Assembly (NCBI RefSeq): GCF_900188085.1
Contig: NZ_FZOU01000014.1
Coordinates: forward strand, 1 to 64,000
From: Granulicella rosea
GTDB taxonomy: Bacteria > Acidobacteriota > Terriglobia > Terriglobales > Acidobacteriaceae
Length of the DNA: 64,000 nt
Direction: 5' to 3'
The notes beneath the pieces are model-generated. The model saw only the letters and a program-made list of their open reading frames with translations, had not been told where the DNA came from and made no database searches. Shown here piece after piece: positions 5,819 to 20,452 of the stretch (positions are counted from its first letter, which is position 1; every line of letters starts with the position of its first letter). The position numbers were made by a program, and so were the translations under genes.

Positions 5819-7759
5819 CTAGTGTCCGGTCCTGCTGGCGTCGACCGCCACGCCGTTTACCTCAAGCGTCTGGTTCAAGACGGCCTGCAGGTTGATCTGC
5901 GCGCGTGCGAGCGTGTTGCGCGCCGTGATCTCCTGAATCCGGCTGCGGTCGAGCGCGCTTTGCACCGCATAGAGCCGCGTCGGATCGGAGGTTCCGAAGT
6001 CGAACATCTTCCTCTCGGTCGCGAGATTGTGCTCCATCAGCTTGCGCGCGCCGACGCTCAGGTCGTACTGGGCCTTCGCCTGCCGCAGCGCCAGCGCCGA
6101 CTTGATCGTCTGCAGCCGCACGCCATTGCGCAGCGACTGCCGCGCGATCTCCCGCTGACGCAGCTCCACCTGATCCCGCGCCAGGTCCGACTGCGCCGCC
6201 CGGTTCACCAGCGGCACATTCAGTTGGAAGCCTACCTCGTAGTCCGGGAACGCGCCCTGCGCGATCTGGCTCAGCGCCGACCCGAAGTTGCCGACGAACT
6301 TCCGGTCCGTCGCGGTCTGGATATTCGCCGGCGCCAGCGGATTCAAACGCCCCGCCAGACCGTTGCCCTGCACCAGGGCGTAGACGTCGAAGACCGGCCT
6401 GACCGCATTGCGCGTGCCCTGCAGACTCAGGCGGGCGTTCTCGAGCGCCAGATCGGCCTCCTTCATCTCGACGCGCGCCGCAACCGCCCGGTCGCCCAGC
6501 GTGTTGACGTCGGCCGTCAGCAGCGCCGGGTCGACGGCGCTGAAGTCGTCCGTCAGCTCCAGACGCGCGTTGACGATCCTGGGATCTTCAAGCCCGGCAT
6601 GCGTCAGCACGCTCTTCAGCGTCGCCTCCTGCTCGGCGATCTGCGCGTCCGCATCCGTCAGCGCCTGGTGGTTGCCGTCCACGCGTATCTGCGCCTGAAT
6701 GACGTCCGACTCCGCCGCCAGCCCCAGGTCCAGCCGGCCCTTCGTCTGTTCCAGCACATGCTGGTCGCGATCCACGGCCTCGGCCAGCACGCGCCGCTGC
6801 GCCACGAACGAGATGAGATCGTAGTAGAGTCCCTGCACCTCGGCGACCGTAAGAATCAACTGCTGCTCGAAGACCGAATCCGCCAACCTGGCGTTGTTCT
6901 TCGCAATATGGATCGCCCGCGTGTTCGTCTTCCAGCCAAACCCCTGCAGCAGGTGCTGGTCCACCCGGAAGAAGGCGTTCGCCGCCAGGGACGGGTTGAT
7001 CGAGTCGTACGGCGCGTTGCGGCTGGTGCGGATGTCTTCGAAGGCCGCCGTCAGGGTCGTGCCGGTCAGATAACCCTTGCGCAGCCCGGCCTGGTAGTCC
7101 TGAATGTGGCTGTCGAGAAAGTTCGTGCCCGTCACCGTCAGGTTGGCGAGCGGCAGTTGGTCGGCGACGATCCGGCCCGTCGCGAAGAACACCGGCTCGG
7201 TGTTCGGAATCTGAGAGCCCGCAAGCTGCACGTTCAGTCCGCTCAGGAGCGTGCCGCCCGGCGCGCCGGTACCCTCGTAGCCGAAGGGCGAGGCGGTCGC
7301 CAGCGTGCCCGAGGCGCTCGACGCGCCGGGGTTGGTGTTGCTGGGCAGATTGCGCAGCAACTGGCCGGAGCGCGCCCGCGCAAGGTCCGCCCGCGCCATC
7401 GGGTTCAACAGCCGCACCGACTCCACGTCGAGATTGTTCTCCACCGCCAGCGCGATGGCGTCCTTCAGCGATAGCCGGATCGCCCCGTCCGAGACCAGCA
7501 GCGCCGCGCGCTCCGCGTCGCCCATCGAATCGGTGAACTGCATTGGTTCGAGCGTCGTCGCCCTGTAGTTGAAGGCGTACCGGCTGAAGAGCGAGTCGAA
7601 CCGCGACGGAGCGTTTGCCCCAACCCCGTACCCGGCGGTCGCCGTCTTCGCGGGCGCCGGGCCGGCGGGCAGCGCCGCCTGCTGGCCGCGCGCCAAACCC
7701 GCCGCGCCGCAGAGGAACGCAGCCGCCAGAACGTTGACTTTATGTGTATTCGCGCTCAA
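5819..7759 (-). CDS. TolC-like outer-membrane efflux protein (TTG start, overlaps the synthase gene)
   Basis: 646 residues. After a short signal sequence ending around ARGQQ, the body has two long alpha-helical repeats typical of TolC/OEP proteins: LSLKDAIALAVENNLDVESVRL, ARADLARARSGQLL, a central beta-rich part, YEVGFQLNVPLVNRAAQSDLARDQVELRQREIARQ and a final helical segment. The long frame continues upstream opposite other genes, but the convincing start is TTG at 7759, preceded by GGAGG eight bases away. That TTG shares the bases TTGA with the stop codon of the GT2 gene, giving translational coupling. It should form the outer-membrane duct paired with the HlyD-like adaptor two genes upstream. 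The protein is longer than typical TolC (about 490), mostly at the N terminus. Confidence 0.85.
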   Translation of the reverse strand: MSANTHKVNVLAAAFLCGAAGLARGQQAALPAGPAPAKTATAGYGVGANAPSRFDSLFSRYAFNYRATTLEPMQFTDSMGDAERAALLVSDGAIRLSLKDAIALAVENNLDVESVRLLNPMARADLARARSGQLLRNLPSNTNPGASSASGTLATASPFGYEGTGAPGGTLLSGLNVQLAGSQIPNTEPVFFATGRIVADQLPLANLTVTGTNFLDSHIQDYQAGLRKGYLTGTTLTAAFEDIRTSRNAPYDSINPSLAANAFFRVDQHLLQGFGWKTNTRAIHIAKNNARLADSVFEQQLILTVAEVQGLYYDLISFVAQRRVLAEAVDRDQHVLEQTKGRLDLGLAAESDVIQAQIRVDGNHQALTDADAQIAEQEATLKSVLTHAGLEDPRIVNARLELTDDFSAVDPALLTADVNTLGDRAVAARVEMKEADLALENARLSLQGTRNAVRPVFDVYALVQGNGLAGRLNPLAPANIQTATDRKFVGNFGSALSQIAQGAFPDYEVGFQLNVPLVNRAAQSDLARDQVELRQREIARQSLRNGVRLQTIKSALALRQAKAQYDLSVGARKLMEHNLATERKMFDFGTSDPTRLYAVQSALDRSRIQEITARNTLARAQINLQAVLNQTLEVNGVAVDASRTGH

Positions 7760-9438
7760 CTCAGGATCCTCCGGGCGAGCACGTACATGGATTTCAGGAA
7801 GCCGCCCTGTGTAACGGCGTGCCGGAACCGTGTGCTGTCGTCGCTCGGCCGCTCGACGCACACAATCAGCGCCAGGAAGATCAGCCAGAAGTCGAAGATC
7901 GAGAACGCCAGCACCTGCGGCGTGTTGGTGTCCCACACCAGCCAGCGCGGGCCGTACGGCGTCAGGTTCACGAGCATTCCCAGAATCGTCAGCGTCAGCA
8001 GCGCCAGAAAGCCGCGCACGGCCTGCCACTGAAAGACGTACTTGTCGCGCGTCTCGCCCTTCAGCGTTACGCGGAAACGGTGGCCGAAGGGATGGATCAG
8101 GCCGCGGACGATGGTCGGAATGAAGTAGAAGATGCCGACAATGCGGCCCAGCTCCGAGACGATCGGCACCACGCGCCGACCGGTCAGCCAGTAGAGCACG
8201 ATCATGCTCAGCGCCATGCGCGGCACCATCATCGTAATCAGGTGGCCTACCTCGGCGTTGAACGGCGGAATCCCGGTCCACCAATAGATGCCCGGCGCGG
8301 TCAGGATCAGGAACGGCCAGAAGTAGCTGAGATAAAAGAGGATGGGGTCGAGAAAGAACAGGCGGTCGAGCAGGCTGAGGCCGCGCGCGCGCAGCGGTCC
8401 GCCCGGCAGGTACAGGCACTGCAGCGTCCCCATCGCCCAGCGGCTGCGCTGCCGGATGAAGCCCGCGAGGCTCTCCGCCGCCAGCCCTTCGCTCAGCGTC
8501 TCGTTCAGATACCGCACCGTGTAGCCCGCCGCGCGCAGCAGGTACGACGAGTACAGATCCTCCGTGATGCTGTCCTCCGGAATGCCGCCGATCTTATCGA
8601 GCGCGCTGCGCCGCACCAGAAACGAGCCGCCATAGCAGAAGGCGTTGTCCCAGGTATCGCGGCCCGGCTGCACGATGTCGGTGAAGACGCGCTGCTCCTC
8701 CGGCCACGCGTCCTCGCCCTTCAGGTTGTACTGGATCGGGTCGGCGTTGGTCAGGTTGCCGGGCGTCTGGACGAGCGCGATCTTCTGGTCGCGCATGAAC
8801 CCGACCGTGCGTTCGAGAAAGTGCGGATAGACGACGAAGTCCGCGTCGATCGAAAGGATGAACTCGCCCGAGGTCTGCGCCAGCGCATTGTTGACGTTGC
8901 CTGCCTTATATCCCTTGTTGCCGTCGCGGCGAATGTAGCCGACGCCGCCAGCCTCGCAGCGCTGACGCAGCCACGGCCGGTCGCCGTCGTCCAGCACATA
9001 GATCTCGAGGTTCTTCCAGCGAAGCTGCTGCGCGGCATAGATGCTGCGCTCCAGAATCTCCCAGCCCTCGTTCACCGTCGGAATGAAGACGTCGACCGTA
9101 GGGAAGACGCCCGAAGCCATCAACTGCGCCTCGCGCTGATTGGCCTCCTCCGTTCGGTCGGAGAGGCGGATGAAGAGCAACATCTGGAAGCTCAGTTGGA
9201 GAACCGCCACCAGTTCGGCGATGAAGACGATGCCGCTCCAGAAGAACTGGAGCGTGAAGCCCGCCGCCGGCAGCGTGTCCGAAAACCGCCAGAGCTCGTA
9301 CCGCAGATTGAAATAAACGACGATGAACGCGCCGATCGCCCGGACAAACGGCGCCTTCCAGGGCAGCATCGGAGCGATGATCAGCACCGCAACCAGAAAA
9401 ATCAGATATCCCAGAAATCCGGGAAAGAGGTCGATCAA
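7756..9438 (-). CDS. Membrane GT2 polysaccharide synthase of the cellulose/curdlan synthase type
   Basis: 560 residues. Three or four hydrophobic segments precede residue 90, the catalytic domain spans about 112-340, and four or more membrane segments follow. Processive GT2 residues are all present: DDG at 150-152, DAD at 198-200, TED at 292-294 and the QxxRW motif (QRSRW) at 330-334. Cellulose synthases carry a C-terminal PilZ domain that binds c-di-GMP; here the region after RFRVTLKG runs into further membrane segments and no PilZ motif is seen. That is closer to curdlan (CrdS) or mixed-linkage glucan (BgsA) synthases. The GH17-like and GH81 neighbours also point to a beta-1,3-containing glucan. 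Its stop overlaps the TolC-like start (TTGA), and the HlyD gene ends 35 bases upstream. The donor is probably UDP-glucose, by inference. Confidence 0.88.
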   Translation of the reverse strand: MIDLFPGFLGYLIFLVAVLIIAPMLPWKAPFVRAIGAFIVVYFNLRYELWRFSDTLPAAGFTLQFFWSGIVFIAELVAVLQLSFQMLLFIRLSDRTEEANQREAQLMASGVFPTVDVFIPTVNEGWEILERSIYAAQQLRWKNLEIYVLDDGDRPWLRQRCEAGGVGYIRRDGNKGYKAGNVNNALAQTSGEFILSIDADFVVYPHFLERTVGFMRDQKIALVQTPGNLTNADPIQYNLKGEDAWPEEQRVFTDIVQPGRDTWDNAFCYGGSFLVRRSALDKIGGIPEDSITEDLYSSYLLRAAGYTVRYLNETLSEGLAAESLAGFIRQRSRWAMGTLQCLYLPGGPLRARGLSLLDRLFFLDPILFYLSYFWPFLILTAPGIYWWTGIPPFNAEVGHLITMMVPRMALSMIVLYWLTGRRVVPIVSELGRIVGIFYFIPTIVRGLIHPFGHRFRVTLKGETRDKYVFQWQAVRGFLALLTLTILGMLVNLTPYGPRWLVWDTNTPQVLAFSIFDFWLIFLALIVCVERPSDDSTRFRHAVTQGGFLKSMYVLARRILS

Positions 9439-9473
9439 GAGGTACTCCTCAGCGGCAGCTCATACGGTGCGAG

Positions 9474-10787
9474 CTACATGCGTGTGATCCAGAAATAAAT
9501 GCTCGCCCGCAGAGGATGTTTCGAACCCGGGAACAGAACCTTGGCCGACTGCCCGATGTACTCGGCCCTGCGGTCGACCGGATCGAGCTCGATGCTCACG
9601 TGGTACTGGTCCGGGTGGACGGCCTGCAGGTCGATTGCGTTGACCTCTTCATCCAGCCGGCGGCGGCTCGTGCCCTCGAACGAGGTCACGCGGCCGCGCA
9701 GCTCCTTGCCCATGCCGTTCAGGTAGACCAGCGCGATATCGCCGATGGCGAGTTGCGGCCCGTACCGCCGGTCCAGCCACACCTCGACGTGGATCGAGTT
9801 CGCGTCGGCGATGCGGAAGAGGTCGTCGCCCTCCTGTACCGCCTGACCGGTCGCCACCGTGCGGGACCAGATCGTGCCCGAGACCGGGCTGTAGATCGTC
9901 GTCCGGGCGCCCTTCACGGGTTCGCCGTTCGCGCCGGTCACGGGTGTGGGGAGTCCGTCGCTGCCCAGAAGCTGGTCGTCGAGCGCCGCCTTCTCCTCGC
10001 GCAACCGGTCGACCTGCGCCGCGGCGTTGTCGCGCGCGCTCAGGAACGCGGGCGTCTTGCTGGGATCGAGTACGAAGCCGGCCTTCACATCGGACGCCTG
10101 TTGCTTCAGCCGGCGCAGGTTGGCGCCGCGCGTATCGGCCTCACTCTGCGCCGCGTCGGCCTTCTCCGTCGCCTGGTCCAGCATCGGCCGCGAGATCAGG
10201 TGCTCCTTCAGCGCCTGGCGGTTGCGTTCGAGGTCATCGGCGGCCGACTGCGCCCGCTTCTGCGCGGTGTCGTACGCGGTCTGCGCCTCGCGCACCTGCA
10301 GCGTCAGGTCCGCGCCCGTGTGCTGCATGTAATCGTTGTACATCTTGTCGTAGCGAGCCTTCTCCAACTGCGCCGCAATCAGCGATGCGTTCAGCTTGGC
10401 GGACTCTTCCTTCAAATCGCTGCGCCGGCGGGTATCGCCAACCGCCTCCGCGTGCAGCATGGAGGGCGCAACCGTGGTCGTCGCCAGCACCTGGTTCGTC
10501 ACAACCGAGTCGCCGGTCTCAAGCCTGACCTCGCCGACCTGCCCTTCGATCGGCGCCTTCACCTCCGACAGACGTGCGTTCACCACGGCCTGCGTGCTTA
10601 CGGGGACCACCGAAAGCGGAAAGAGCGCCGCCAGCGAGACGACCAGCAGCGGAAGCGCGACCAGGAGCCGGATCAGACGCCAACGCACCGGCTCGTTCGG
10701 CAACTGGGTGGGCGTCGGCGGCGCCGAGAGTCGTATCTCGTTGTCCGCGGCAAGCTCCTGGGGCGGCGACTCAATGAGGTTAGACAT
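9474..10787 (-). CDS. HlyD-family membrane-fusion (adaptor) protein
   Basis: 437 residues starting at the ATG preceded by AGGAG (CAGGAGAACC). There is one membrane segment (about residues 30-53). Then comes a half-biotinyl motif (VKAPIEGQVGEVRLETGDSV), a long coiled coil (about residues 100-260, rich in Ala, Glu, Lys and Gln), and the second lipoyl half with beta-barrel (IYSPVSGTIWSRTVATGQAV, LFRIADANSIHVEVWLDRRYG). It is the first gene of the operon and should bridge the inner-membrane synthase and the TolC-like duct. HlyD-like partners of glucan synthases are known (BgsB in Sinorhizobium), which supports glucan export over drug efflux. An in-frame extension of 44 codons upstream lacks a ribosome-binding site and is not used here. 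Confidence 0.87.
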   Translation of the reverse strand: MSNLIESPPQELAADNEIRLSAPPTPTQLPNEPVRWRLIRLLVALPLLVVSLAALFPLSVVPVSTQAVVNARLSEVKAPIEGQVGEVRLETGDSVVTNQVLATTTVAPSMLHAEAVGDTRRRSDLKEESAKLNASLIAAQLEKARYDKMYNDYMQHTGADLTLQVREAQTAYDTAQKRAQSAADDLERNRQALKEHLISRPMLDQATEKADAAQSEADTRGANLRRLKQQASDVKAGFVLDPSKTPAFLSARDNAAAQVDRLREEKAALDDQLLGSDGLPTPVTGANGEPVKGARTTIYSPVSGTIWSRTVATGQAVQEGDDLFRIADANSIHVEVWLDRRYGPQLAIGDIALVYLNGMGKELRGRVTSFEGTSRRRLDEEVNAIDLQAVHPDQYHVSIELDPVDRRAEYIGQSAKVLFPGSKHPLRASIYFWITRM

Positions 10788-11078
10788 GGTTCTCCTGAGG
10801 GACAGGCTTTCTGGATAAATGGGTAACCACCTCAGAAGACCGCATGGAATCCCTTTCGTCAATAAACTTTTGGTAACTACCGGTCTGGGTCGTATGGCGA
10901 CATTCGGTGAGTTGTCCATCCGGAATCGCTGCTCGGGTACGTCTTTTCACGCGGCTCCGATAGAATCGCCGTGGGAGCGATCGAAAACCGGTCACTGGCC
11001 GGAAGCGACGAGAATCTGTACCTACACTTTTGCTTTTGCGACATCTAACCCAGAACGGAACGGCACACAGGAGGTTTC
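10788..11078. promoter_or_regulatory. Divergent intergenic region between the glucan operon and gnd
   Basis: 291 bases without a gene, so the promoters of both transcription units must lie here. The minus-strand leader contains the palindrome GGTAGTTACC (around 10870-10880). Near gnd there is a CGATAGAAT element that could serve as a -10, and GGAGG lies a few bases before the gnd ATG. I could not assign a known operator or riboswitch; a c-di-GMP (GEMM) riboswitch was looked for and not seen. Confidence 0.4.
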
Positions 11079-12101
11079 ATGCAACTGGCAATGGTAGGAC
11101 TCGGTCGTATGGGCGCGAACATGGTGAAGCGGTTGGCCGCCCACGGGCACACCTGCGTCGTCTTCGACCGGTCGCAGCAGGCCGTCGACGATCTCGCGAA
11201 GACTCCGGGCGTCACCGGCGCAACCTCCATCGAGGACATGGTCGCGAAGCTGGAGCTGCCGCGCGCCATCTGGCTCATGATTCCGGCTGGCGTGGTCGAT
11301 CAGACCATCGAGCAGATCGCCCCGCACCTTGAAAAGGGCGACATCCTCATCGACGGCGGCAACTCGTATTACATCGACGACATCGCCCGCGCCAAGGTGC
11401 TTGGTCCCGGCGGCATCGAGTACGTGGACGTAGGCACCAGCGGCGGCGTCTGGGGGCTGGAGCGCGGATACTGCATGATGATCGGAGGCTCGGAGGCGAC
11501 GGTGAAGCACCTCGACCCGATCTTCAAGACGATTGCGCCCGGCGTCGGCAATGTGGACAAGACTCCCGGCCGCGCGCCCGGCAAGGGCACCGCCGAGGAA
11601 GGCTACCTGCACTGCGGCGGCAACGGCGCCGGTCACTTTGTGAAGATGGTTCACAACGGCATCGAGTACGGCATGATGGCCGCCTACGCCGAGGGTCTGG
11701 GCGTGCTGAAGGCCGCGAACATCGGCAAGCATGTGGGCGAGATCGACGCCGAGACCACCCCGCTGCGCGATCCGGAGCACTACCAGTACGACATGGACCT
11801 GCCGGAGATCGCCGAGGTCTGGCGCCGCGGCAGCGTGATCGCATCGTGGCTGCTGGACCTGACCGCCTCCGCGCTGATCTCCGATCCGGAGCTGTCGAAG
11901 TTCGGCGGACGCGTGTCGGACTCGGGCGAAGGTCGCTGGACCATCAAGGCGGGCATCGACGAGGGCGTGCCCACGCCGGTGCTCACGGCTTCGCTCTACG
12001 AGCGCTTCAGCTCGCGCGGAGAGGCGGACTACTCGAACAAGCTGCTCTCCGCGATGCGGTATGAGTTCGGCGGCCATTTGGAGAAGCCCAAGGACAAGTA
12101 G
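11079..12101 (+). CDS. gnd: 6-phosphogluconate dehydrogenase (decarboxylating), short NAD-type
   Basis: 340 residues, the length of the short YqeC/GndA-like bacterial form rather than the 470-residue NADP enzyme. The Rossmann motif GLGRMGANM is at residues 7-15. Substrate and catalytic segments include DGGNSYY, GTSGGVWGLERGYCMMIGG and HCGGNGAGHFVKMVHNGIEYG, with the catalytic Lys in FVKMVHN. It converts 6-phosphogluconate to ribulose 5-phosphate with release of CO2. A strong ACAGGAGG site precedes the ATG. It lies just ahead of the NfrA/NfrB-type genes but is followed by a hairpin, so it is probably transcribed separately. With Edd at 46.6 kb the cell can send 6-phosphogluconate to either the pentose-phosphate or the Entner-Doudoroff route. 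Confidence 0.95.
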   Translation: MQLAMVGLGRMGANMVKRLAAHGHTCVVFDRSQQAVDDLAKTPGVTGATSIEDMVAKLELPRAIWLMIPAGVVDQTIEQIAPHLEKGDILIDGGNSYYIDDIARAKVLGPGGIEYVDVGTSGGVWGLERGYCMMIGGSEATVKHLDPIFKTIAPGVGNVDKTPGRAPGKGTAEEGYLHCGGNGAGHFVKMVHNGIEYGMMAAYAEGLGVLKAANIGKHVGEIDAETTPLRDPEHYQYDMDLPEIAEVWRRGSVIASWLLDLTASALISDPELSKFGGRVSDSGEGRWTIKAGIDEGVPTPVLTASLYERFSSRGEADYSNKLLSAMRYEFGGHLEKPKDK

Positions 12102-12279: not shown

Positions 12280-13584
12280 GTGTGTGTATTGTTGATGACG
12301 TTTCGTTTGCGCGGTATCTTCGGGGCCGTTTGTTTCGCGGCGCTGGCCTTCACGGTTGGGGGGCATGCCCAACAGTCCAAGCTGCCGGTGGCGAACGACG
12401 CCTCGGATGCATGCCCCGCCGCCGCGGAGACCGGCGATACGACCTATCCGATTCGCAAGCTGGCCTTTGAAGCCCTGAGCGCGGGCCGTCAGGCGGAGGC
12501 TCGTCACCTGATGCGCTGCGCGCTGCATGTCAATCCGTCCGATCTGGTGGCGTTGCGACAGATCGTCTACATGGATCTGAATGCCGGCGACGAGAGCGGC
12601 GCTGTCGAGGACATCGACGCGCTGCGCGGGATGAATGCGAGCACGCCGACCTTCGAGGCGCAGGAAGGCTACATCCTCTTTCACCAGAAGAAGAACGAAC
12701 AGGCGCGCGCCGCCTTTGTCCGCGCCATGGCGGGCGACGATGCGTTGATCCGCGAGCATGCCCGGCAGGCTATCGCGGTGATAGACGCACAGTTTCCGAA
12801 TCACACGCTGGAGATCGCGGTCGACGGGCAATATCTGAACCGCTTCGACGATGGCGTGGTCGACGCCTATGCCCGGTACTTCGAACGCGTGGGCGGCAAG
12901 GACTCGCCGATCCGTGCGTATGTGGGCGCACGTCTGCTGCGCGACACGGCCTCGCAGAACGGACCGCTGCCGCAGATCTTCTCCGACAACGCCTTTCTCA
13001 GTGGCGTGGGGCTTGCCTATCAGCCGCAGGGCGCGCACTACTTCGTCTCGACCGAGGCGAATGCAGCCTATGCGCTCTATGCCGGACGCAACCATACGGC
13101 GGCGGTGATCCCCGACTTTCGCATGGTGGCCGGTTACTACAACCTCTTCCGGCCCGGCGCGGGCTCGCCGCTGCATCGGCTTTCGGTGCAGGCGAATGGT
13201 TCTGTGGGCTTCTACTCGCGGTATCAGGACAACATCATCGCGTACCTGCAGCCGCAGGAGACCTACGACCTGACGACCGGCGCGCTGCGTATCTCGCCCT
13301 TCTTCCAGCAGAGCTTTGCCTTCGACGTCAACCAGCAGTTCTACAACAACATCGCCGAGATGATCCCCGGGGTGCAGTTCTCGCTCGCGCGGTTTCCGGG
13401 CGCCGCGCTGCGGGCGGAGTATGTGCGGGGCTACTACCTGCCGTTTCACACCAACTCCGTCAATCCCTACGGCTCGGAGTACAACGACATCCGCGTCCGC
13501 CTGACCTTCGACAAGCTCTTTTTCCTGAAGCACAGCGACCGGGGTGAATCGGCGGTCGAGCCGCCCGCCGGAGGCCCGCATTGA
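12280..13584 (+). CDS. NfrA-like outer-membrane protein (TPR region plus NfrA_C-type beta-barrel)
   Basis: 434 residues. A signal peptide ends at VGGHAQQ. Residues about 45-165 form TPR-like helical pairs (ALSAGRQAEARHLMRCALHVNPSDLVALRQIVYMDLNAGD). From about 170 on, alternating beta-strands resemble the C-terminal barrel of the N4 adsorption protein NfrA (YVGARLLRDT, FLSGVGLAYQPQG, FYSRYQDNIIAYLQPQETYDL, PFFQQSFAFDVNQQFYNNIAEMIPGVQF). E. coli NfrA is about 990 residues, so this is a compact version. The assignment is supported by the next gene, an NfrB-type synthase whose TTG start overlaps this stop (TTGA). The expected role is secretion of the NfrB glycan through the outer membrane. The start could be GTG 12280 (GGAAGA eight bases ahead) or ATG 12295. 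Confidence 0.75.
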   Translation: MCVLLMTFRLRGIFGAVCFAALAFTVGGHAQQSKLPVANDASDACPAAAETGDTTYPIRKLAFEALSAGRQAEARHLMRCALHVNPSDLVALRQIVYMDLNAGDESGAVEDIDALRGMNASTPTFEAQEGYILFHQKKNEQARAAFVRAMAGDDALIREHARQAIAVIDAQFPNHTLEIAVDGQYLNRFDDGVVDAYARYFERVGGKDSPIRAYVGARLLRDTASQNGPLPQIFSDNAFLSGVGLAYQPQGAHYFVSTEANAAYALYAGRNHTAAVIPDFRMVAGYYNLFRPGAGSPLHRLSVQANGSVGFYSRYQDNIIAYLQPQETYDLTTGALRISPFFQQSFAFDVNQQFYNNIAEMIPGVQFSLARFPGAALRAEYVRGYYLPFHTNSVNPYGSEYNDIRVRLTFDKLFFLKHSDRGESAVEPPAGGPH

Positions 13585-16500
13585 TCGCCCTGATGTGGGT
13601 GCTGGCCGTGCTGTATCTCTTCGGCGGCCTGAACGACGCTTTCCTCGACCTCGTCTTCTATGTGAAGCCGTTGCGCCGGCTGATCGGACAGGGGCGCGAG
13701 AATCCCACCTGCGAAGAGGCGGAGCTGCACGGCATTCCGGAGAAGCGCATCGCCATCATGGTGCCTGCTTGGGACGAGTCGGCGGTCATCGGCGCGATGC
13801 TCGAGAGCACCTGCGACCGGCTGGAGTATGAGAACTACGACATCTTCGTCGGCACCTATCCGAACGATGAGGCCACGCAGATGGAGGTGGCGCGCGCGGC
13901 CTTCGACCGAAAGCACATCCACCGTGTCGTGTGCCCCAACGATGGGCCTACGAGCAAGGCCGACTGCTTGAACTGGATCGTCGAGACCATCAAGCTGCGC
14001 GAGCGCGAATCCGGCGAGCGATACGAGATCTTCTGTCTGCAGGATGCGGAGGACGTCGTGCATCCGCTGACGCTGAAGGTCTTCAACCGCTTCGTGCCGG
14101 AGTACGACCTGGTTCAGCTTCCCGTCATTCCGTATGAGCGCAGCCTGAACAAGCTGACCGGCGGCACGTATCTGGATGAGTTCGCGGAGGTTCACCTGAA
14201 GGGGTTGACCTCGCGCCTCGCGGTCGGCGGCATGGTGCCTTCGGCGGGCGTCGGCACGGCCTTCTCGCGCGCGGCGTGCGATGAACTTGCCGAGCAGACG
14301 AACCACATTCTCTTTCCGCCGGTCTCGCTGACGGAGGACTACGACTTCTCCTTCCGGCTCTTTCGCAACGCACGCAAATCGGGCATCGCGGAGGTGTGGG
14401 TCGATCGTACCGACGCCAAGGGCCGCTACATCAAAGAGCTCGTCGCCATCCGCGAGTTCTTCCCGGCGATCTTCGGCGACGCGGTGCGTCAGAAGCAGCG
14501 CTGGATGCTGGGCATCGCCTTCCAGGGCGCGCAGAAGCTGGGTTGGGGAACGGGCTGGCGCGAGCGCTACATGCTCATGCGCGACCGCATCGGCGTGCTG
14601 ACGAGCATCCTGAACCTGGGCGCCGCGTTCATCTTCTTCGAGCTTTGCTTCAACATCGGCTGGGGGCTTGCGCACCATCTCACGTGGTCACAGAGTCTGC
14701 CGCCTTACTATCCGCACCACGCGCTTTCGCTGATGATCGACGCGAACCTGATCCTGCTGGTGAACCGCATCTTCCAGCGCGCGCGCTGCGTGGGACAGAT
14801 CGCCAGCCGGCGCCAGATGCTGCTTGCGCCGGTGCGCATCGTGTGGTCGAACATCATCGACTTCTACTGCACCTATCATGCGATCCGGCGGTTCACGCAC
14901 TCGATCTATTCGGGCAAGCCGCTGAAATGGCTGAAGACGGCGCACGAGTTTCCTAACGTGGAGGCGCTGCTACAGCGGCATCGTCCGCTGGGCGACCTGC
15001 TGCTGGAACATCGCTTCATCTCGCCCGTGCAACTGCGCAAGGCGCTCGGCATTCAAAGCCGCACCACTGATCGCAATATGCCGCTGGGGCAGATTCTGCT
15101 GGCGGAGAGCGCCATCACGAAGGACCAGCTTCTGATGGTGCTCAACCTGCAACGTCAGTCGCGTGCGGCGATGAACGAGGCGACCGGCGCGGATGCACGC
15201 GCGGCCTTCCCGGCGTCGCACCTGGCTGAGATGGACCTCAGCGCCGATCTCCCCTCGGGCCTGCGCACGATCTATACCGAGTCCGTGCAATCCGTCGTGC
15301 CCGCTGCGGTCGAGATTCCCATGCAGCCGGCCGCTGCACCCGCAGCGACCTTTACCACGGTCGCCCCGGCGCGGCTGGCCTCGGGCGAGATCAAGATCTT
15401 TCCCGTCGCCACACCTGCGCCGCCGGCCCATCCGCCGGAGTTCGTGCATGCGGCGCCTCCCACGGAGCCGGCCGCGGTGCCGGTCGTCGCCATGCCGACC
15501 GTGGCGAAGCCCGCCGCGCAGCGCCCGGTCACCTCCGTCAAGCCGCCAACGCCTGTTGTGATTAGCATGCAGCCGCCGGCGCCCGCTCCGGCACAGTCGA
15601 ACGCCTCGCGCGAACATCTGCGCAATCCACGCACCGCCGTGACCCGCATCGTACCTGCCGCACCCATTGGAAAGAGGTTCTCCGTGCTCCACTCCGTCGC
15701 GTCCAAATGGACTCCCACCATGCAGAGCCGCCGCTTTGTCGTGGCTATCGGCACACGGCCCGAGGCCATCAAGCTGGCGCCGGTCATCCGCGAGTTGCGG
15801 CTTCGCGCGGAGATCATGAAGGAGCCCGATCCGGTCTTTGTCTGCGCGACCGGCCAGCATATGGATATGGTGAGCGACGCGCTCTCGCTCTTCGGCGTCA
15901 GGGTCGATCGCAACCTCGCGCTGATGACGCCCGGCCAGTCGCTGGCCGCCATCTCCGCCCGAGTACTCACGGCCTTCGAGACCGTGCTCGCGGAGATCCG
16001 GCCGGAGTGGGTCATCGTGCAGGGCGACACCGCAACCACGGCCATGGCCGGACTCGCCGCCTTCTATGCGGGCTGCAAGATCGCGCACATCGAGGCGGGG
16101 CTGCGCACCAACGATCTGCGCAACCCGTTTCCGGAGGAGTTCAACCGGCGCATGGTCGGCATCTTCGCGACCGTCCACTTTGCCGCTACCCCGATGGCCC
16201 GGCAGAACCTGCTCCGCGAGGGCGTCGCGCCACGCACGATCGTCGTGACCGGCAATACGGGCATCGATGCGCTTCGCCGCAACGCCCAGCGGCTCGGCAT
16301 CTCCTTGCAGGGTCAGCCCGCGAATTCCGCGATCGGCACGCGGCCGCTGCGCGTTCTGGTCACGGCGCATCGCCGCGAGAATCTCGAGCAGGGGATTGAA
16401 AATCTCTGCCGCGCCATCCGCGCGCTGGCGGCGAATCATCCCGGACGCTACCAGTTTGTGTGGCCTCTGCATCCGAACCCGCAGGTCGGCGAACGCGCGC

Positions 16501-16925
16501 GGCATTTTCTGCGCGAGACGTCCGGCGTCGCGCTGACCGGGCCCGCCTCCTACGACCGCCTGCTCGAACTGTTGAACGACTGCGACCTCGTCATGACCGA
16601 CTCCGGCGGCATCCAGGAAGAGGCGCCATCGTTCGGCAAGCCGGTGCTGATTCTTCGCGAGACGACGGAGCGTCCGGAGGGCGTGGAGGCAGGCGTTGCG
16701 TGGTTGGTCGGCACGGAGCCGACCCGCATCGTCGCGGCAGTCGAACGGCTTACGCTGAGTTTGCAGCAGCTTCGCCCGAAGGCCAATCCGTACGGAGATG
16801 GACACGCCGCGGGCCGGATCGCGGACTTCTTCGCTGGGCTGCCCGTGCAGGAGTTCGGCGCGAATCTGGACTCGTTCGAGCGTGCCGGCGAAAATCCCCG
16901 GTTGGCCGTGGCGGCTCGGACTTAA
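13581..16925 (+). CDS. nfrB: NfrB-WecB fusion: GT2 glycan synthase, MshEN-type domain and UDP-GlcNAc 2-epimerase in one chain
   Basis: 1114 residues. The order is: N-terminal membrane segment (1-28); GT2 domain (about 55-320) with DAED at 155-158, TEDYDF at 251-256 and QKQRW at 304-308; membrane segments (about 340-430); two 24-residue MshEN-like motifs at 469-492 (PLGDLLLEHRFI..LRKALGIQ) and 501-524 (PLGQILLAESAI..LLMVLNLQ); a Pro/Ala-rich linker (about 540-700); and a complete non-hydrolysing UDP-GlcNAc 2-epimerase (about 716-1090). The epimerase has GTRPEAIK at 724-731, GDTATT at 815-820, HIEAGLRT at 836-843, PFPEEFNR at 849-856, TAHRREN and SGGIQEEAPSFGKPV, so its catalytic Asp, Glu and His residues are present. 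The first three parts match E. coli NfrB, whose glycan pathway depends on WecB-made UDP-ManNAc; here donor synthesis and polymerisation are joined. The TTG start has GGAGG six bases ahead and overlaps the NfrA-like stop. The canonical MshEN arginine is Pro in both motifs, so c-di-GMP binding is uncertain. Confidence 0.9.
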   Translation: MIALMWVLAVLYLFGGLNDAFLDLVFYVKPLRRLIGQGRENPTCEEAELHGIPEKRIAIMVPAWDESAVIGAMLESTCDRLEYENYDIFVGTYPNDEATQMEVARAAFDRKHIHRVVCPNDGPTSKADCLNWIVETIKLRERESGERYEIFCLQDAEDVVHPLTLKVFNRFVPEYDLVQLPVIPYERSLNKLTGGTYLDEFAEVHLKGLTSRLAVGGMVPSAGVGTAFSRAACDELAEQTNHILFPPVSLTEDYDFSFRLFRNARKSGIAEVWVDRTDAKGRYIKELVAIREFFPAIFGDAVRQKQRWMLGIAFQGAQKLGWGTGWRERYMLMRDRIGVLTSILNLGAAFIFFELCFNIGWGLAHHLTWSQSLPPYYPHHALSLMIDANLILLVNRIFQRARCVGQIASRRQMLLAPVRIVWSNIIDFYCTYHAIRRFTHSIYSGKPLKWLKTAHEFPNVEALLQRHRPLGDLLLEHRFISPVQLRKALGIQSRTTDRNMPLGQILLAESAITKDQLLMVLNLQRQSRAAMNEATGADARAAFPASHLAEMDLSADLPSGLRTIYTESVQSVVPAAVEIPMQPAAAPAATFTTVAPARLASGEIKIFPVATPAPPAHPPEFVHAAPPTEPAAVPVVAMPTVAKPAAQRPVTSVKPPTPVVISMQPPAPAPAQSNASREHLRNPRTAVTRIVPAAPIGKRFSVLHSVASKWTPTMQSRRFVVAIGTRPEAIKLAPVIRELRLRAEIMKEPDPVFVCATGQHMDMVSDALSLFGVRVDRNLALMTPGQSLAAISARVLTAFETVLAEIRPEWVIVQGDTATTAMAGLAAFYAGCKIAHIEAGLRTNDLRNPFPEEFNRRMVGIFATVHFAATPMARQNLLREGVAPRTIVVTGNTGIDALRRNAQRLGISLQGQPANSAIGTRPLRVLVTAHRRENLEQGIENLCRAIRALAANHPGRYQFVWPLHPNPQVGERARHFLRETSGVALTGPASYDRLLELLNDCDLVMTDSGGIQEEAPSFGKPVLILRETTERPEGVEAGVAWLVGTEPTRIVAAVERLTLSLQQLRPKANPYGDGHAAGRIADFFAGLPVQEFGANLDSFERAGENPRLAVAART

Positions 16926-18285: not shown

Positions 18286-18496
18286 ATCTCAATACGACCT
18301 GACTGCCAGCCCGATGAAAGGTATCATACTCCCCCATCGGGGTTCGAACTGAATTTGTAAGATGCACATTGCAAAAGACTTTTATGGAAATTGAAGGTCC
18401 ATGCAGTAGTACACCTATCCGATCGTCGTTCCATGTCCGTAGTGTGGCTCTCGCTCTTGTACAGCAGTTTTTCGAGCGCTCTATATAAGGATGATC
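18286..18496. promoter_or_regulatory. Divergent control region of the glucan-use locus
   Basis: 211 bases between the regulator-like gene and GH16. It contains a short hairpin CCCC-ATC-GGGG (around 18331-18343), the half-site GTAAGA followed by TGCAC (18357-18367), which weakly resembles one half of the operator described at 39021-39079, and an AT-rich stretch TATATAAGG just before GH16 that holds the ribosome-binding site. The promoters must lie here, but none is clearly defined. Confidence 0.35.
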
Positions 18497-20452
18497 ATGT
18501 ATTTCGCACCTCGCACGAACCATACCAGACCGGCTCTGCCGCTCCTTGCGCTGGCCTTGATCGTGCTTTCGCCGGCCGGCATCGCGCAGCAGCAGACCTC
18601 GGGTTGGAAGCTGGTCTGGAGCGACGAGTTCAACGGTACCTTGGGCGCCGCGCCGGACGCAAGCAAGTGGAAGTTCCAGACCGGCGCTGGCGCCGCGGTC
18701 GCCGGGAACGATGAAGCAGAGGTCTACTGTGCGCGCGAATCGGCGCCGCCCTGCCGGGCCGACCAGCCGAACGCCTACCTCGACGGCAACGGCCACCTTG
18801 TCCTCGTCGCGGTTCGGACCGGCGCCAGCATCACGGTGGGGGCGAAGAAGGTCGTCTCGCCGGTCTACACCTCCGCCCGCATGACCAGTGTGCAGAGCTT
18901 TCGCTATGGGCGGATGGAGGCCAGCATCCGGATTCCGGCTGCGGGCAAAGGCGTCTGGCCGGCGTTCTGGGCGCTGGGCCAGGAGAGCGGCGGCGTCCAC
19001 TGGCCGGCGGTGGGCGAGATCGACGTGATGGAGCAGTGGAACCCGATGCCCGGCGCGCCGGACAAGATCGATGGAGCGACCATTCACGGAGCGGTTCATG
19101 GCCCGGTGACGCCGGGATCGGAGACGGGTTTTCTAGACCAGAGCGCGGACTTCGTCCTGCCGACGTTGCCGTCCGCCGGCCTGCACCAGTACGCGGTGGA
19201 GTGGGCTCCGGGCGAGGTGGACTTCTACGTCGATGGGTCGCTCTACCATCGGACGTCGGTCGGCTCGATGACCGGCAAGGAGCTTTGGGAGCAGGATCGC
19301 GGGCCGTTCAACCTGCTGCTGAACCTGGCGATGGGAGGCGGCTTCTTCGGCTATCCGGATGCGACGACCGGCGCGACCCCGACGATGGTGGTCGACTATG
19401 TCCGGGTCTACCAACCGGCGGAGAAGCTGCTGGGGCCGGGATGGTCGAACGCCGATATCGGCGGGCCTGGCGAGGCGGGTTCGGCGGTGCTGCGCGACGG
19501 CGTTCACACGGTGGCGGGCGGCGGCGCGGGGATCTCCGGTCGATTCGACCAGTTTCAGTTTGCTTACAAACCGCTGGCGGGCGACGGGGAAGTGACCGCT
19601 CATGTGATCGACCAGAGCTCGAAGGTTGCGCAGGCGAAGGCTGGCGTGATGCTCCGCGAGGGCCGGGGAGCGGCGGCGCCGTACGCGATGGCGTTCGTCT
19701 CGCCCGATGGCAGCGTACACTTTCGCTTTCGGACGACGCGCGGAGAGATTCCGGGCGAGGTGCTGTACAGGGGCGCGGCTGCGTGGCTGAAGGTCGGGCG
19801 CGTGGGCGATGTCTTTACAGGCTACGTCTCGGCCGATGGAAAGAAGTGGGAGGCGATCGGCAATGCGAAGCTGTTCGTGAGGCACGATCTGATCGCTGGA
19901 ATGATCGCGACGTCGCGCGATAACAAGGCCGCCAATACCGTGCGCTTCGACCATCTCGACGTGACGCCGACGGATGCGGCCTTCGATGGCGAGGCCGCTC
20001 CGCTGCCTGGCGTCGTGCAGGCGGAACGCTTCGATACCGGTGGCGTGGGCTATACCTTCAGCGCCGAGTTCGGCGAGGCGGGGCCGCAGATCGAGCGCAT
20101 ACCCGATGCGGCTGGAACCGAGGCAAGCGCTGGAGGCTACACCCTGCGCGGTCTGAAGGCCGGCCGATATATCAACTACTCCGTGAACGTCGCCAGGGAA
20201 GGCGACTACACGATCTTCGTGCGGGCGGCTTCGGCGGGCGCCGGCGGCACGCTGCACTTCAACCTCGACCAGAAGCCTCTGTCGAAGCCGTTCGTGCTGC
20301 CCGATACCGGCGGGGAAGACCAGTGGCGCGAGGTCAAATCGCCCACGGTTCACCTGGCCGCCGGCCAGCATACGCTCGCCCTGGTGACGGACACCGCCGG
20401 CGCATCGGGCGTGCTGGCCAACATCGATCTCTTCGCGGTTCGTCCGCAATAG
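18497..20452 (+). CDS. Secreted GH16 beta-1,3-glucanase with DUF1349-like and CBM6-like modules
   Basis: 651 residues from the ATG at 18497 (AAGG six bases upstream); an ATG two codons earlier touches the same site and is less likely. A signal peptide ends near GIAQQQ. The GH16 jelly-roll (about 35-300) has the laminarinase signature GEIDVMEQ, with the first catalytic Glu at residue 174 and the second in VMEQ. A DUF1349/concanavalin-like module follows (about 310-485, FDQFQFAYKPLAGDGEVTAHV, KAGVMLREGRG). A CBM6-like carbohydrate-binding module is at the C terminus (about 495-650, VQAERFD..GGYTLRGLKAGRYINYSVNV). It should cut beta-1,3 or mixed beta-1,3/1,4 glucan outside the cell. It begins a plus-strand series with receptor, NHL/Ig protein and GH1. 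Confidence 0.9.
   Translation: MYFAPRTNHTRPALPLLALALIVLSPAGIAQQQTSGWKLVWSDEFNGTLGAAPDASKWKFQTGAGAAVAGNDEAEVYCARESAPPCRADQPNAYLDGNGHLVLVAVRTGASITVGAKKVVSPVYTSARMTSVQSFRYGRMEASIRIPAAGKGVWPAFWALGQESGGVHWPAVGEIDVMEQWNPMPGAPDKIDGATIHGAVHGPVTPGSETGFLDQSADFVLPTLPSAGLHQYAVEWAPGEVDFYVDGSLYHRTSVGSMTGKELWEQDRGPFNLLLNLAMGGGFFGYPDATTGATPTMVVDYVRVYQPAEKLLGPGWSNADIGGPGEAGSAVLRDGVHTVAGGGAGISGRFDQFQFAYKPLAGDGEVTAHVIDQSSKVAQAKAGVMLREGRGAAAPYAMAFVSPDGSVHFRFRTTRGEIPGEVLYRGAAAWLKVGRVGDVFTGYVSADGKKWEAIGNAKLFVRHDLIAGMIATSRDNKAANTVRFDHLDVTPTDAAFDGEAAPLPGVVQAERFDTGGVGYTFSAEFGEAGPQIERIPDAAGTEASAGGYTLRGLKAGRYINYSVNVAREGDYTIFVRAASAGAGGTLHFNLDQKPLSKPFVLPDTGGEDQWREVKSPTVHLAAGQHTLALVTDTAGASGVLANIDLFAVRPQ

Follow-up and report, generated by a model that had tools for sequence, protein, structure and literature searches.

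The closest described system is that of Escherichia coli, in which NfrB, a c-di-GMP-activated glycosyltransferase, provides the glycan receptor of phage N4 together with NfrA and WecB (NfrC). The receptor requires wecB, nfrB must have its GT and MshEN sites, and NfrB needs WecB for function (PMC8669469, PMC8669472); infection by N4 depends on WecB, not on WecC (PMC8669469). In E. coli itself the product of NfrB is a proposed one, a ManNAc polymer according to Sellner et al. (PMC8669472). The arguments for ManNAc have so far come from E. coli genetics and from gene neighbourhood. Junkermeier and Hengge reported that where a genome lacks any other wecB, there is one beside nfrB (PMC8669469). In Pseudomonas soli, in Achromobacter, on Zymomonas plasmids and in two Elusimicrobiota loci (L025 and L026) the enzymes are encoded in one locus by separate genes, wecB being usually upstream of nfrB (this analysis and PMC8669469); in Achromobacter xylosoxidans nfrA, nfrB and wecB are clustered (Sellner et al., PMC8669472).

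Here we describe a locus in which synthase and epimerase are parts of one polypeptide. It lies in a stretch of 64,000 nucleotides from Granulicella rosea, referred to below as the window. The NfrB/NfrA/WecB system itself is already known, and the fusion is apparently unreported: it is not mentioned in the available parts of PMC8669469 or PMC8669472, and no paper reporting an NfrB-WecB fusion, or NfrB in acidobacteria, was found in the open-licence literature. The fused form adds the NfrB system to the Acidobacteriota.

The fused gene and its outer-membrane partner

The reading frame of the fusion is uninterrupted, and the TGA stop codon of the upstream frame ends at 13584, so that TTGA is common to the two genes (Table 1). 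The initial annotation had described an NfrB-type GT2 synthase, MshEN motifs and a full WecB domain in one chain of 1114 residues; this was borne out by scans with the Pfam and NCBIfam models, and its coordinates, frame and TTGA overlap were exact.

Table 1. Features of the fusion locus and of the adjoining cluster (positions in the window; aa, amino acid residues)
Feature	Position	Strand	Remarks
TolC-like outer-membrane factor	5819-8419 (frame)	-	by eye
CelA/BcsA-like GT2 without PilZ match	7756-9438	-	
HlyD-type membrane-fusion protein	9474-10919	-	
NfrA-like outer-membrane export protein	12280-13584	+	signal sequence; predicted TPR superhelix about aa 43-171, 12-strand beta barrel 175-415
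NfrB-MshEN-linker-WecB fusion gene	13581-16925	+	1114 aa; begins with TTG; shares TTGA with the end of the upstream gene
GT2 synthase and membrane helices (aa 1-463)	13581-14969	+	DAED 155-158, LTED 250-253, QKQRW 304-308; 37% identical to NfrB of E. coli
MshEN-type c-di-GMP motif pair (aa 464-530)	14970-15170	+	RPLGDLLL..., MPLGQILL...; NF053729
Pro/Ala-rich linker (aa 531-716)	15171-15728	+	disordered about 569-701
Putative ribosome-binding site AAGAGG within the gene, with in-frame GTG (15684-15686)	15672-15686	+	putative free WecB, 413 aa
WecB/MnaA non-hydrolysing UDP-GlcNAc 2-epimerase domain (aa 718-1085)	15732-16835	+	TIGR00236, Epimerase_2, alignment to E. coli WecB

In the synthase half (residues 4-531) the NfrB-type models NF012033 (466.2 bits) and NF008411 (437.8 bits) were the best families by far, with scores under their strict cut-offs of 537 and 1170, and Pfam Glyco_tranf_2_3 matched with an E-value of 1e-31. 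The D-x-D-like, TED and QxxRW active-site motifs of GT2 enzymes are present and align with those of E. coli NfrB. The order of GT2 and MshEN is also that of the E. coli protein, and the identity to it extends over 602 aligned positions, MshEN motifs included. The MshE-related c-di-GMP motif NF053729 was found after the GT domain at residues 469-524 (43.2 bits, cut-off 38), where it aligns with the MshEN of E. coli NfrB. The part that follows MshEN in E. coli (about 600-745) is replaced by the linker in the window.

The C-terminal half proved to be Epimerase_2 (Pfam, 3e-101), and TIGR00236 (wecB) scored 366.6 bits over residues 720-1081 against a cut-off of 210, whereas the model of the hydrolysing epimerases NeuC/NnaA, TIGR03568, stayed below its cut-off (63.9 bits, cut-off 235.9). 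Residues D816, E838, E852 and H930 of the fusion align on D95, E117, E131 and H213 of E. coli WecB, which we take to be the catalytic residues. The domain thus shares with WecB/MnaA epimerases the family score and the four aligned residues, and differs from them in being fused behind a membrane synthase. In an AlphaFold2 model built from 61 sequences the GT2 domain with the membrane helices (1-444) and the WecB domain were predicted with confidence, the MshEN region was poorly defined with low confidence, and between them lay a disordered stretch of about 130 residues (569-701) and a short helix (700-709). Foldseek matched the modelled WecB domain to the UDP-GlcNAc 2-epimerases 6vlb, 3beo and 1f6d.

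For the upstream gene, the ATG at 12295 is a likelier start than that given in Table 1, for it aligns with the related locus L023 (see below). In E. coli as in the window the synthase has an outer-membrane TPR-barrel partner encoded by an overlapping gene, but this gene is the first of the two in the window and the second in E. coli, and its product has 434 residues and no Pfam match as compared with 990 residues in E. coli. No Pfam family, hence no NfrA_C domain, was detected in it at E-values up to 0.1. Its AlphaFold2 model (mean pLDDT 79) shows a signal sequence, a TPR superhelix and a barrel of 12 strands, and the best PDB match found with Foldseek was the cellulose exporter BcsC (9b8a, 1e-8), PgaA (4y25) being matched at 5e-6. 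The predicted fold therefore has the layout of BcsC, PgaA and NfrA, with TPR helices in the periplasm and then a barrel in the outer membrane, although the window protein is smaller than the BcsC and PgaA exporters, with its 12 predicted strands. A profile of the barrel family matched long frames beside proteobacterial nfrB, in the position of NfrA, at E-values between 1e-7 and 1e-3, the matches falling mainly in the TPR region; with a seven-member profile hhalign gave 95%, and the similarity to E. coli NfrA was again mostly in the TPR repeats. Since there is no Pfam match and the profile similarity lies mostly in the TPR part, the protein is named NfrA-like and is not a proven NfrA. Of the NfrA-like outer-membrane gene proposed in the initial annotation, the coupled TPR-barrel gene, its position and its predicted fold stand; the NfrA_C domain does not.

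Related fusions and separate neighbours

NfrB homologues were surveyed for C-terminal WecB fusions by using the NfrB part of the fusion as query against 84,980 species genomes. Two more genes with the whole architecture were found, both behind the same barrel gene. The first (L023), from an uncultured Granulicella MAG, encodes 1117 residues and is 68% identical to the window fusion; the second (L024, JANXWZ010000154.1) encodes 1124 residues, is 60% identical and is labelled Rhodanobacteraceae. With that of the window, three fusions are known in all. In phylogenetic trees their NfrB halves formed one clade and their WecB halves another, each with a support of 100, and on this grouping of both halves the fusion arose once. 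The linkers are 24% identical between the fusions, always in frame and of similar length.

The label of L024 raised the possibility that the fusion had been transferred to Rhodanobacteraceae. This was rejected on two grounds: the neighbouring mnmE is 64% identical to that of the window genome (362 bits), whereas no solved MnmE protein scored above 197 bits, and the next gene encodes an Oar-like CarboxypepD_reg/OMP_b-brl_4 protein. Although binned as Rhodanobacteraceae, the contig is thus apparently acidobacterial.

In the NfrB tree the sequences nearest to the fusions were from Elusimicrobiota (support 83). There, in L025 and L026, the barrel gene, nfrB and wecB follow in the order seen in the window as three separate adjacent genes, and in L026 only a few bases lie between the nfrB stop and the wecB start. 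Such an arrangement is the expected state before fusion. When a wecB homologue was looked for within the stretch fetched around each of 80 nfrB loci, one was found nearby in 66, in 57 of these upstream of nfrB on the same strand. On plasmids of Zymomonas and Thalassospira the two genes are side by side, and in one family of the class (f6) they are often far apart or on different contigs.

Closer to the window the system is rare. No NfrB match was obtained in 36 genomes of the same genus, and among 250 genomes of the family there was no fusion besides that of the window and a single other NfrB-like gene (genome G232, 43% identity). The latter (L132:1402-4320) is unfused: a TPR-barrel-like gene is followed by an NfrB-like gene without MshEN and without a WecB part, a variant which, by its sequence, looks independent of c-di-GMP. 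Such a scattered distribution would fit either horizontal gain or repeated loss. Viral contigs gave no match to the fusion; in phage records, matches to the WecB half were among the best, none of the matches listed covering at least 80% of the query.

A frame with the two enzymes in reverse order, WecB-NfrB, was seen in a single gammaproteobacterial MAG (L082:5672-8452, 926 residues). It differs from the window fusion in that WecB comes first and no MshEN is seen. Whether this is a second, independent fusion is doubtful: with an SD-like run and an ATG at the start of its NfrB part, the frame may also represent two genes that have lost the stop codon between them, or a sequence error.

A possible internal start before the WecB domain

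Just before the WecB domain the window fusion reads gga AAG AGG ttc tcc GTG (GTG at 15684). At the same position L023 has aga AAG AGG tat gct TTG and L024 has gca AGG AGA ttc tcc ATG. The last codon shown encodes a different residue in each gene (V, L and M), yet it is a start codon in all three, and AGA and AGG are infrequent among the arginine codons of these genes (2/92 in the window gene, 12/99 in L023 and 4/84 in L024). When synonymous codons were drawn at random from each gene's own usage, an SD core combined with a start codon arose with probabilities of 0.009, 0.013 and 0.021 (window, L023 and L024), jointly about 2.5e-6, a value to be discounted because the pattern was seen before the test, the genes are related and there are a few dozen possible start positions. 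In SD energy the site is not unique, ranking fifth, third and first among the in-frame starts of the three genes. The organism uses SD-type signals: in the window an SD core accompanies 21% of the candidate start codons close to gene starts, as against 5% inside genes.

The conserved site suggests that a free epimerase may also be made from the internal start. In L025 and L026, where wecB is a separate gene, its start codon is preceded by GAGGAG or AGGAGA; the site in the fusions may therefore be a retained relic of an ancestral separate wecB. The conserved internal start can be put to the test as an example of a single gene that may yield both fused and free versions of one enzyme.

Donor supply, mechanism and competing readings

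The genome of the window organism (5.3 Mb, 99.9% complete) has a single match to TIGR00236, the fused domain, which is thus its sole WecB-family epimerase. For this reason the genome fits the rule given in PMC8669469, as an extreme case of wecB adjacent to nfrB. The initial description of the system as self-contained agrees with this point and may be too simple in another, since the internal ribosome-binding site, kept in the three genes, points to free WecB as a further product. With 21 GGDEF domains in the genome, c-di-GMP can be made. Other users of UDP-ManNAc are possible, given one WecG/TagA-type (PF03808) transferase gene and two nucleotide-sugar dehydrogenases, one of which scored 253 bits against the UDP-ManNAc dehydrogenase model, below the cut-off of 459. 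The sole PF03808 gene (L122:1243-2550) encodes a WecG/TagA-type glycosyltransferase with, by eye, a C-terminal STAS-like stretch.

The gene probably encodes an NfrB-type, c-di-GMP-responsive membrane GT2 polysaccharide synthase whose polypeptide also contains the UDP-GlcNAc 2-epimerase supplying its donor. We infer c-di-GMP control, a ManNAc product, the export route and the expression of two products as follows. The cytosolic WecB domain, on its long flexible tether, would convert UDP-GlcNAc to UDP-ManNAc at the inner membrane. Binding of c-di-GMP at the MshEN motifs would switch on the GT2 domain, which would polymerise ManNAc, alone or with GlcNAc, and pass the chain to the periplasm through its membrane helices; the TPR-barrel protein of the overlapping upstream gene would then carry it through the outer membrane. 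Consumption of UDP-ManNAc where it is made would pull the unfavourable epimerisation forward. Substrate channelling, proposed in the initial annotation, would on the model of the protein take the form of proximity: the disordered tether of about 130 residues would give a high local donor concentration and no closed channel. The glycan might in addition act as a phage receptor, as the initial annotation suggested. Any free WecB made by internal initiation may make up the epimerase dimer or be available to other enzymes that use UDP-ManNAc, for example the WecG/TagA-type transferase. A nested two-product gene, in which the full-length synthase-epimerase and a free WecB initiated at GTG 15684 together complete an epimerase dimer around each synthase, is put forward tentatively; in that case donor supply would be fixed to the polymerase by translation itself.

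By the 'Rosetta stone' argument the conserved fusion directly supports UDP-ManNAc as donor and, with it, the proposal that NfrB polymerises this substrate. Alternatively, the two enzymes might be merely tethered through a lost stop codon, without functional coupling, WecB feeding another pathway (a WecG/TagA-type transferase, aminouronate) and NfrB using another donor such as UDP-GlcNAc. In favour of this are the barely conserved linker sequence, the PF03808 gene and the two dehydrogenases, and the putative internal start, which would release WecB for other purposes. Against it, the frame and the length of the linker were kept in three diverged genes, the genome is without another WecB-family epimerase, wecB accompanies nfrB in most loci across phyla, and E. 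coli genetics link WecB, not WecC, to NfrB function (PMC8669469). We regard a mere tether as unlikely.

It is quite improbable that the enzymes are mostly two proteins in the cell, released by internal initiation or linker cleavage, the fusion being a functional operon with a read-through form. When the linkers were shuffled, the chance of their staying open was 0.07, 0.05 and 0.01 for the three genes, jointly about 4e-5, and if the fused form were useless, there would be no reason to expect an open, in-frame linker in each of the three, even though the SD-like run and start codon before WecB are kept in each of them and the linker has some 130 disordered residues where it might be cleaved. 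A frameshift or chimeric assembly joining two genes was rejected as scarcely credible: the three sequences are draft contigs, but the frame is single and open in the window and intact, without a stop codon, in L023 and L024, the three assemblies being independent and the proteins 60-68% identical. With donor synthesis, polymerisation and c-di-GMP control combined in one polypeptide, the product could be synthesised from UDP-GlcNAc and examined in a single reaction.

Several further genes of the window were recorded. The barrel gene is immediately preceded by a 6-phosphogluconate dehydrogenase gene of the gnd_rel type (11079-12101, + strand), and downstream of the fusion there is a glycanase-like gene with a weak match to EglC (18491-20452). 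Adjoining the fusion locus and divergent from it is a second exopolysaccharide-type cluster (5819-10919, - strand), whose genes are included in Table 1.
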